From Bacteroidia bacterium (lineage in GTDB: Bacteria > Bacteroidota > Bacteroidia > Chitinophagales > JAUHXS01), in NCBI GenBank assembly GCA_030426955.1, contig JAUHXS010000006.1, forward strand, positions 124,001-188,000: DNA of 64,000 bases. The letters run 5' to 3'. Below the pieces are notes generated by a model that did not search any database, was not told where the DNA came from, and saw only the letters and a list, made by a program, of their open reading frames with translations. Below are positions 31,896-35,325 of the stretch, one piece after another. Within the stretch, counting starts at the first letter, position 1; each line of letters begins with the position of its first letter. The position numbers and the translations under genes are program-made.

Positions 31896-32366
31896 TTATC
31901 CCCTTTGATTTTGTTCTATTTGTAAAGCCAAAACAGTCAATACAATAATAATAGGAGATTCTATTACCCAAATAAGTTTCCTGACTATTAAGTAAAAAGT
32001 TTGGGTGTTTTCAGTAACAGATCCTAAAAACATTAAACTACAGGACAAGGCGATTACCAATAGCTCTACTTTCCATAAGAGGGACAATGTTTTCGTATTG
32101 CCAAATAATATGCTGCCAATGAGCATTGCTAGTAAAAAGAAAATGAGGATAAAACCTCCAGTCATTACCCATTTGCTCAGATAGAGTACCTTACTGTCTA
32201 TTGTAAATATAAAAGAAGTACTACTAGGCAATGTTGCTGAAAGGTATACGGTATTATCTAGTCGCTCGTTTAGGTGCTCTGCCAAATTCTCTCTTAAAAA
32301 GCTCACATAAAGCGATAAGATGAAAATAGCAATAGCTAAAGCTTTTTTAGTTTTATTGTGAGTCAT
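31896..32366 (-). CDS. Four-helix membrane protein of the exosortase cassette
   Basis: A 156-aa protein with about four membrane helices (about 8-24, 65-90, 97-115, 125-147). A periplasmic loop after helix 1 carries REN and NERLDNTVYL. No family is certain. It lies 3 bp downstream of the exosortase stop, so it is co-transcribed and probably works with it. Exosortase-associated membrane proteins of this size are annotated in other Bacteroidota exosortase loci, and this is my best guess. It is the last gene of the three-gene operon; the repeat island follows. Confidence 0.62.
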   Translation of the reverse strand: MTHNKTKKALAIAIFILSLYVSFLRENLAEHLNERLDNTVYLSATLPSSTSFIFTIDSKVLYLSKWVMTGGFILIFFLLAMLIGSILFGNTKTLSLLWKVELLVIALSCSLMFLGSVTENTQTFYLIVRKLIWVIESPIIIVLTVLALQIEQNQRG

Positions 32367-32369
32367 TTA

Positions 32370-32870
32370 TCATCGTGTTTTCATCCTTTTGATGACAAGT
32401 ATCCACAGCAAGAAAATAAAGCTGTACACTAGTAGCGTGAATGTATATTTATGATTAAAGTCTAAATAACTAGGGTAGAAGCGTTGTATTAAAATAAGTA
32501 CTGATATTCTTAACGTATTTACTAGGTGGATTAATATAATGCCTATGATGGCATAAATTGATTTGTACTTCCAATTGCCAAAAGGATAGGCTATAATGAA
32601 AATAGCGAATAAAATAAATAAATCTAGTCCGTTGCAAGGATCACCAATCCAAACCCCGCCAACACCATCAACTATTAGAGATCTTCCATCCACTAATACA
32701 TTAAAGCCTAAGCCACTTAAGAGGGCTTTAGTAAGGGTTATAGAATTATCTATTACAAATGCATCTAGTTTACCCCATGGATTAATAAGAAAAGTGTATA
32801 GTAGGTACCAAGCTAAGTAAAGCAACACAAAAGAAACAGCAAATTTGGTTACCGTCTTAGGTAAGTCCAT
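32370..32870 (-). CDS. Exosortase/archaeosortase-family membrane peptidase
   Basis: A 166-aa integral membrane protein with about five helices. The exosortase active-site set is present: Cys79 in GDPCNGLDLF, Arg121 in NTLRIS and His140 in DFNHKYTF, each at the membrane edge as in the family. These enzymes cut C-terminal sorting tails of exported proteins and are thought to transfer the protein to another molecule. It is shorter than proteobacterial exosortases, which fits Bacteroidota types (XrtF/XrtX-like; subtype not decided). The gene directly upstream encodes a protein with a matching PID-type tail, supporting an enzyme-substrate pair. Confidence 0.82.
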   Translation of the reverse strand: MDLPKTVTKFAVSFVLLYLAWYLLYTFLINPWGKLDAFVIDNSITLTKALLSGLGFNVLVDGRSLIVDGVGGVWIGDPCNGLDLFILFAIFIIAYPFGNWKYKSIYAIIGIILIHLVNTLRISVLILIQRFYPSYLDFNHKYTFTLLVYSFIFLLWILVIKRMKTR

Positions 32871-32886
32871 TTTAGTAAGGTAAAGA

Positions 32887-33204
32887 TTATTTTACCTTCT
32901 TGTTATGGTCGTATATTTTTTTTGCACCATACCCAACACCTGCCGCAATAAGCAAGCTGATTCCGCCATCTATAGGTAAAGCGGTATTTGGAGGAGGAGG
33001 TGGAGGTGGTGGTGGACCTTGTGCGAATATTTCCTCAGAAATAAATAGACCTAAGCTGATTAGGACTATTGTAAATGTTATTTTAGTGATATATTTCACT
33101 TGTTTTAGTTTGTTTTTATAAAAATACCAAATACCTATTGAAAAGCAAAAAAATACAATGAACTTGTCTAAAGTTAAAATCTTCTGAGGTGTTAGACGAT
33201 TCAT
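32887..33204 (-). CDS. Short proline-rich PID-CTERM protein, likely exosortase substrate
   Basis: Open from ATG 33204 for 105 aa. A GTG at 33099 would give 70 aa and begins VKYITKITFTIVLISLG ... EEIFAQ, a proper signal peptide, so the shorter form is plausible. After AQ come Gly, nine Pro in a row and NTAL, then the tail PIDGGISLLIAAGVGYGAKK and a charged end. PID, a hydrophobic helix and a basic end form the sorting-signal layout described for exosortase targets (PID-CTERM). If cut at the signal peptide and near PID, only about 13-18 residues would remain. It is 16 bp upstream of the exosortase gene. The long form adds another hydrophobic segment (about 15-29). Confidence 0.75.
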   Translation of the reverse strand: MNRLTPQKILTLDKFIVFFCFSIGIWYFYKNKLKQVKYITKITFTIVLISLGLFISEEIFAQGPPPPPPPPPNTALPIDGGISLLIAAGVGYGAKKIYDHNKKVK

Positions 33205-33366: not shown

Positions 33367-35325
33367 ATGCGTAAAGGTTATTGGATAGCAACTTTTGTTT
33401 TTTTTATTCTAACAACCTTAGGTGCTTTTTATCATGAGTTGTGGGCAGATGAAATTATACCATGGCAAATAGCAAAAAGTAGTTCTAGTCTGTGGAATTT
33501 GTATGAACATTATCAATATGAAGGACATACTTTTATATGGTATGCTATGGTATGGGGGGTGCATCATACAGTAGGATCACTTATTTATATGCAACTTACT
33601 CATATCCTGCTTGCATCATCAGCCATTATCATATTTTTGAAGTATGTTCCATTTTCCACAACAGAAAAACTACTATATATTTTTGGCTATTTTATGTTTT
33701 ATGAATATGCTGTTATAAGCAGACCGTATATTCTTGGTGTATTGAGCGTTTTTGCCATTAGCGTTTTTCTTCAAAAATCTAACGCCTCAATTAAATACTT
33801 ATACTATGCTTCTATCTCCATATTTGCGTTAGCTAATACGAGTTTGTATGGTATCGTTTTGTCATTTGCTTATGTTCCTGTAATCTGTATACGTATTTGG
33901 AAAAATATGGGTATAAAGGAAGGCATCTTGTTGCCGTTTGTTATGTTTTTAGGGATTACTTTAGCATTTTACCAAGTGCTTCCACCAGCTGATGGAGGAT
34001 TTGTGAATTCAGAATGGCGGTTTTACTTTGATGGCAACCTTTTTGTCGATGTTGCTGATCAAATATTTACTGCATATATTCCTATACCAGATTTTACCGA
34101 GCTTTCATCGTGGAACTCAAATTTCTTTATTACTTGTTTTCATAATGACTATTATAAATACTCCGTTGCAATCTTTTCCATTTTTATGGTACTTGCTGTG
34201 GGGTATTACCTTAAACCAAATAAAGAAGCATTATTTATATACCTGGTAGCTACTTTGGGGATCTTAAGTTTTGCATATTTAAAATATAAAGGTACACTAA
34301 GGCATCATGGGTATTTATATATAATATTAGTTGCCTGTATTTGGCAGTATAAAAGCAGCAGTGCTTTTCCCAAAGCACCGAAGACAATAAAAGATAAATT
34401 GTTAAAGGCTTCTTTTTCTATTGTTCTATTATGCCATTTTTTAGCAGGAGCCTATAGTTATATAAAGGATTTGCTATTGCCGTTTGACTTAACAGAATCA
34501 ATGGTTGCATATATTAATAAGGAAAGCCTTGATAGTATGCCTATGATTACGGATAATGTCAGTTACGCTGGCTTTTTAGACAAGCCAGTCTATTTTGCAG
34601 AGAAAATGGAATTTGCAAATCATTATACGTTAAATAATAAGAGGGCAGATGTCAATAATAATGAGCATCTCTTTTTATCGCTAATAAACGAGGTGGTGCA
34701 GCAAAGTGACTCCAATGTTTTGTTAGCTTGGAGTAGACGATTGTCATTTGCTGATGTTTCAATGGGAATTAAAGAATTAGCTTTTAAAAAAGGCTGTATT
34801 AGGACACCCATTCCATTTGTACTATATGAAGTTGATCGTGATAAGTTTCTTGCAAACCACAATGAAAATAAAAATAGAGCTAGAGCATATTTGAGTTCAG
34901 CAAAAAAATACAGCAAAAAAGGAGAAACAGACAAAGCGATTAGTATGCTAGAAAAAGCAATAAGTTTAGATCATGAGATAGACAGTATTAATTATGAAAT
35001 TGGAACATACTATCTTAATAAGAGTCAAATAGATAAAGCCGTATTCTTTCTGAAACAAGAATTGCTCAACAATGGTACTCATGAAGATGCGCATTTTAAC
35101 TTAGCAATAGCGTATTTACAAAGTGGGCAATATGTATTTGCCGTGAATGAGCTAAAAGAATTAGTCATATTAAATGGTGCTCATGAAGATGCGCATAATC
35201 TGTTAGCCATCATTTATGCAAAGACAAACTCTACTATTCAATATAATGAGCAGTTGGAAACTATTGATTCCTTAAAGTTGACGATCTCTAATGAGTTGAG
35301 AAATATTATCAACGCAACTCAATAA
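33367..35325 (+). CDS. GT-C-like polytopic membrane protein with C-terminal TPRs
   Basis: A 652-aa protein. About ten membrane helices occupy residues 8-375. The first outer loop carries HELWADEIIPWQIA; an acidic motif in this position is typical of GT-C glycosyltransferases that use lipid-linked sugars. A periplasmic region follows (about 380-500). The end holds three to four TPR units (about 510-640: ARAYLSSAKKYSKKGETDKAISMLEKAISLD, HEDAHFNLAIAYLQSGQY). Two TPR units share a 24-bp DNA stretch. No exact family recognised. It is divergent from the exosortase operon; exosortase loci are often tied to envelope polysaccharide genes, so a link is possible but unproven. Confidence 0.65.
   Translation: MRKGYWIATFVFFILTTLGAFYHELWADEIIPWQIAKSSSSLWNLYEHYQYEGHTFIWYAMVWGVHHTVGSLIYMQLTHILLASSAIIIFLKYVPFSTTEKLLYIFGYFMFYEYAVISRPYILGVLSVFAISVFLQKSNASIKYLYYASISIFALANTSLYGIVLSFAYVPVICIRIWKNMGIKEGILLPFVMFLGITLAFYQVLPPADGGFVNSEWRFYFDGNLFVDVADQIFTAYIPIPDFTELSSWNSNFFITCFHNDYYKYSVAIFSIFMVLAVGYYLKPNKEALFIYLVATLGILSFAYLKYKGTLRHHGYLYIILVACIWQYKSSSAFPKAPKTIKDKLLKASFSIVLLCHFLAGAYSYIKDLLLPFDLTESMVAYINKESLDSMPMITDNVSYAGFLDKPVYFAEKMEFANHYTLNNKRADVNNNEHLFLSLINEVVQQSDSNVLLAWSRRLSFADVSMGIKELAFKKGCIRTPIPFVLYEVDRDKFLANHNENKNRARAYLSSAKKYSKKGETDKAISMLEKAISLDHEIDSINYEIGTYYLNKSQIDKAVFFLKQELLNNGTHEDAHFNLAIAYLQSGQYVFAVNELKELVILNGAHEDAHNLLAIIYAKTNSTIQYNEQLETIDSLKLTISNELRNIINATQ

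Follow-up and report, generated by a model that had tools for sequence, protein, structure and literature searches.

What would an exosortase do with a substrate of which only about 18 residues are predicted to remain after processing? The question is raised by the window analysed here, a stretch of 64,000 nucleotides of Bacteroidia DNA, in which three ORFs lie side by side on the minus strand with intergenic gaps of 16 and 3 bp, a layout that had been described in an earlier note on this DNA and is borne out by the ORF positions. The gene for the putative substrate lies upstream of the exosortase gene, 16 bp from it, and the features of the cassette are as follows:

32887..33204, minus strand: PID-CTERM micro-protein gene, ORF with an ATG at 33204, 105 aa, matching NF046080
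33022..33099, minus strand: signal peptide VKYITKITFTIVLISLGLFISEEIFA read from a GTG start, with a predicted cut site; its position agrees with the signal peptides of relatives
32968..33021, minus strand: predicted mature segment QGPPPPPPPPPNTALPID, 18 residues, given putative cuts after Ala and after PID
32890..32967, minus strand: remaining sorting tail with GG, hydrophobic helix and basic end, GGISLLIAAGVGYGAKKIYDHNKKVK; NF046080 match, residues 76-99 of the 105-aa frame
32370..32870, minus strand: XrtX-type exosortase, 166 aa, with Cys79, Arg121 and His140; PF09721, NF046081
31896..32366, minus strand: XrtX-associated membrane protein, 156 aa, with four long helices plus short ones; NF046082 and synteny

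The exosortase and its membrane partner

The window cassette is a member of an already catalogued kind. NCBIfam models, overlooked in the earlier note, cover the entire trio (NF046081 for XrtX, NF046080 for PID-CTERM and NF046082 for the XrtX-associated protein), and all 3 window genes match them in the expected order, although the window XrtX falls 3 bits under its cut-off, the partner scores 36 against 75 bits, and the substrate carries Pro9 and lacks the CWPPPC common in relatives. We found no published account of XrtX or PID-CTERM in the open-access literature, most subscription journals being outside the scope of the search.

The enzyme belongs to the exosortase family, with scores of 37.3 bits for PF09721 (cut-off 25.7) and 48.6 bits for TIGR04178 (cut-off 23). 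It scores 167.1 bits against the subfamily model NF046081, with a cut-off of 170, a score that is likewise not reached in several relatives where a PID gene lies alongside; the next subfamily, XrtF, scores 59.8 bits. Cys79, Arg121 and His140, the residues singled out in the earlier note, are at the positions given there and are invariant (64/64 aligned sequences). The AlphaFold2 model of XrtX has a mean pLDDT of 94.8, and that of the partner (mean pLDDT 89) agrees with the earlier description of a helical membrane protein. The partner matches NF046082 with 36.3 bits (E 4e-9, curated cut-off 75), and we class it as XrtX-associated-like from synteny and a common invariant Pro138: a homologue comes after XrtX in 53 of 57 loci. 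For neither XrtX nor the partner did sequence or fold searches return a credible relative of solved structure; a rhodopsin match to the partner (E 5e-4), unsupported by the fold search, was set aside as weak helical-membrane similarity. In the Rufibacter loci L032 and L033, a gene of about 273 aa sits between the PID gene and XrtX.

A short Pro/Gly-rich segment ahead of a conserved tail

The small protein has the PID-CTERM organization, namely, a C-terminal PID motif, a hydrophobic helix and a basic end, and its tail scores well over the curated cut-off in the profile search (NF046080, 46 bits against 26, E 3e-12), confirming that Gly-Pro9 is joined here to a genuine PID-CTERM tail. Its true start is probably the GTG at 33099 (70 aa, with a 26-residue signal peptide) rather than the ATG at 33204 (105 aa), because in relatives the start lies 20-30 residues ahead of the signal cleavage site; hydropathy agrees, with the ATG start adding an extra hydrophobic stretch ahead of the signal peptide. 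The Bacteroidota promoter TAnnTTTG was looked for before the GTG and the ATG, and none was found. Read from the GTG, the protein likely consists of VKYITKITFTIVLISLGLFISEEIFA, then QGPPPPPPPPPNTALPID, then a tail opening with GG, which would yield a mature piece of 18 residues if, following general rules, signal peptidase cuts after Ala and XrtX after PID.

Among 60 relatives, the segment from the signal cleavage site, estimated crudely and with a bias toward short, to the end of PID has a median length of ~20 residues and contains 33% Pro and 22% Gly. These segments, of similar length, are of Gly/Pro, Arg/Asn/Ser, Glu-rich or CWPPPC types. A Cys pair is present in 32 of the 60 relatives, typically as CWPPPC right before PID, and this element possibly forms a disulphide loop. 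CWPPPC, CFPPPC or CIPPPC recurs directly before PIDGG in many of the loci L006-L103 and is absent from the window protein. The features kept among relatives are the signal peptide, a short Pro/Gly-rich segment and the PID tail. Poly-proline, which the earlier note had placed at the centre of its reading, was rejected as the key feature: Pro9 is local and relatives' segments vary in sequence. Because Pro9 is not conserved, it represents one of the forms taken by a short, flexible segment rich in Pro and Gly.

One substrate per genome is the rule

Genome-wide profile search identified a single PID-CTERM protein in the window genome. The possibility of many PID substrates, set beforehand as the outcome that would speak against a dedicated enzyme, was rejected, the next match reaching 16 bits, below the cut-off; the claim of a dedicated exosortase with one tiny substrate is thus supported. 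Conservation of the small gene next to or together with the exosortase, likewise at stake, is seen across Bacteroidia. Of 296 Bacteroidia genomes, 134 encode PID-CTERM proteins, with open frames mostly of 50-150 aa, and about 104 of the 134 have exactly one. XrtX was detected at E <= 1e-15 in 170 of the 296 genomes, including 130/134 PID-positive versus 40/162 PID-negative ones (overlap counts made by eye from 2 tables), which leaves 4 PID-positive genomes with no XrtX detected; PID is present, again counted by eye, in 72 of the 79 genomes whose XrtX exceeds the cut-off. Among 13 genomes with no PID gene near XrtX, 9 have one elsewhere.

The view of the earlier note that a one-substrate exosortase is unusual is not supported: it is the rule for the PID/XrtX family, and the window genome itself holds a second example, since its only other exosortase, XrtN (312.8 bits, cut-off 200), lies beside a VIT-domain substrate (566.8 bits, cut-off 250; G000:C12:44225-44860, locus L001).

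PID genes often adjoin RemA/RemZ-type T9SS cargos in relatives

In relatives, the same-strand gene directly upstream of PID encodes a T9SS cargo in 50 of 82 cases, compared to 7 of 219 other nearby genes. In the first set of loci, a T9SS type A tail was present in 29/43 upstream genes versus 3/110 controls, and in a second set, fetched later and comprising mostly one genome per genus, in 21/39 versus 4/109; since the controls were drawn from within these loci, some of which are related to one another, the Fisher values overstate independence. The complete order T9SS cargo, PID, XrtX, partner is represented by loci of Pontibacter or Rufibacter type (L027, L032, L033 and L038). The cargo-PID pair is often kept where XrtX lies elsewhere in the genome. 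About 40% of the same-strand neighbours and all divergent neighbours of PID genes are not T9SS cargos, and several of these are Wzc-type exopolysaccharide kinases. A second recurring neighbourhood, around XrtX, includes a Wzc-type tyrosine autokinase, a WcaJ-type sugar transferase, a sugar aminotransferase and a nucleotide-sugar dehydrogenase. Tyr-Gly repeats form the C-terminal end of the divergent PID neighbour in L019, L128, L153 and L157; the scanned representative of the cluster to which this neighbour belongs (L011) is a Wzc-type tyrosine autokinase.

The PID-adjacent cargos have in common a domain of ~460 aa that adjoins the secretion tail, its median distance to the C-terminus being 113 residues. 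No model in Pfam or NCBIfam covers this domain, which by sequence matches the solved RemA (E 8e-23) and RemZ (E 3e-22) of Flavobacterium johnsoniae, described respectively as a gliding adhesin and its homologue (PMC10994853). It is encoded in the gene directly upstream at 55 of 109 PID loci and at 41 of the 95 outside the model-building set; the model was built from 12 PID-adjacent cargos, which favours copies near PID genes. Full copies number one to nine per genome, against 51 to at least 150 T9SS cargos in the 4 genomes counted, and in 3 genomes (L022, L038 and L039) the sole copy is the PID-adjacent one.

The window genome also encodes 3 large RemA/RemZ-type T9SS cargos (L159, L160 and L161) but, unlike in relatives, these do not adjoin the cassette: they are located on other contigs, and none of the 3 copies lies beside a PID gene. 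The upstream neighbour of the cassette is a divergent membrane protein rather than a T9SS cargo; the product of this gene (33367-35325, plus strand) is of the multi-pass type and has a TPR region at its C-terminal end. Thus, the link between the PID gene and a RemA/RemZ-type T9SS cargo is strong in relatives and absent at the window locus. We found no report of this pairing in the open-access literature; the new elements here are the pairing with RemA/RemZ-type T9SS cargos and the finding that a single tiny substrate is the pattern across the family. The adjacency of cargo and PID genes may reflect co-regulation alone.

Proposed mechanism and alternatives

We favour, with a probability of roughly 60%, a model in which XrtX and the PID-CTERM protein form a sorting unit that links a short peptide to a lipid or glycan and serves the T9SS surface-adhesion layer. 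The micro-protein would be exported via its signal peptide and held in the inner membrane by the PID tail. XrtX, using Cys79, Arg121 and His140, would then cut at or just after PID to form a thioester and, by transpeptidation, transfer the short Pro/Gly-rich peptide to an acceptor in the inner membrane, either a lipid or a glycan carrying an amine, possibly with the assistance of the four-helix partner. The transfer is proposed by analogy with ArtA, for which resolution of a cysteine thioester by a lipid amine has been modelled (PMC7157517). Precedent for C-terminal conjugation in this phylum is provided by the sugar-linked T9SS anchors of the Wbp/Vim pathway, and such sugars have been speculated to be linked to exosortase systems (PMC7468200). 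The resulting peptide would be roughly 15-30 residues long and modified at its C-terminus, and at the cell surface it could serve a layer of RemA/RemZ-type T9SS adhesin and exopolysaccharide as linker, anchor or assembly factor. With about 18 residues in its one mature substrate, such a system offers the simplest opportunity to determine a C-terminal modification by mass spectrometry.

If functional, the pairing of PID with RemA/RemZ-type cargos would connect exosortases to gliding and adhesion. A further conjecture, which we consider to have the odds against it, is that RemA/RemZ-type T9SS adhesins are anchored or assembled on the cell surface by the C-terminally modified Pro/Gly-rich micro-peptide itself, which would couple an inner-membrane sortase to type IX secretion; if true, this would be a novel mode of surface attachment for Bacteroidota.

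The shortness and the Pro/Gly/Cys-rich make-up of the product, along with the CWPPPC of many relatives that could close a disulphide loop, would also suit a peptide that is released and secreted (a signal, surfactant-like or RiPP-like), with XrtX acting as a plain protease and the T9SS neighbour being merely co-regulated. We consider this unlikely, given that PID is found in close to half of the genomes sampled from the class, a breadth that most signals or natural products do not have, that the maturation or export genes typical of RiPPs do not recur beside the PID gene, and that in the sortase-like precedents an acceptor receives the substrate (PMC7157517). Less probable still is that the micro-protein controls XrtX through its tail, as a regulator or decoy, the real substrates being other proteins and the mature peptide carrying little weight. 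Conservation of the tail sequence, but not of the mature part, could be read in this way; nevertheless, the window genome contains no other PID-tail protein at a meaningful score, one per genome is the rule, and the length, Pro/Gly make-up and CWPPPC of the mature part are retained in many lineages.

The recurrence of genes for Wzc-type kinase, WcaJ-type transferase and sugar enzymes around XrtX raises the alternative that the unit serves exopolysaccharide export, in the manner of PEP-CTERM/EpsH, and that the T9SS link is secondary. However, among the genes directly next to PID on the same strand, T9SS cargos far outnumber any other kind, even where XrtX is not nearby, and at the window locus neither exopolysaccharide nor T9SS cargo genes are adjacent. 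We judge this alternative to be about as doubtful as peptide release and retain a sorting unit serving the T9SS surface-adhesion layer as the preferred model.

Comparison with known sorting systems

With its one PID substrate and no exopolysaccharide genes adjoining it, the window cassette falls outside the PEP-CTERM/EpsH (XrtA) type, in which the exosortase has many PEP-CTERM substrates and lies within an exopolysaccharide locus. The ArtA/PGF-CTERM system of Haloferax volcanii resembles it in having a tripartite C-terminal signal, a Cys nucleophile and a sortase-like catalytic set, and C-terminal lipid attachment has been modelled for that system (PMC7157517, PMC11980579). However, substrates of ArtA are large, the S-layer glycoprotein being one example, and the membrane and lipids differ. 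The domain next to the secretion tail of F. johnsoniae RemA and RemZ is the one common to the PID-adjacent cargos of relatives.

The XrtF system of F. johnsoniae (Fjoh_1448/1449; TIGR04128) likewise combines a small exosortase with a membrane partner, although the XrtF model scores the window enzyme far lower, at 60 bits against a cut-off of 90. Biofilm and zorbs are lost when either XrtF or its membrane partner is deleted, and the substrates of this exosortase are still to be found (PMC10936215). Because loss of either protein gives the same biofilm defect, the XrtF case supports, by analogy, a reading in which XrtX and its partner would act in one pathway with a role at the surface. A parallel to the one-substrate arrangement is provided by the XrtN of the same genome with its VIT-domain substrate (TIGR04476, TIGR04477), which is also a single dedicated neighbour; that substrate, in contrast to the micro-protein, is large (a 462-residue partial frame, matched by an 822-position model) and carries a different tail.
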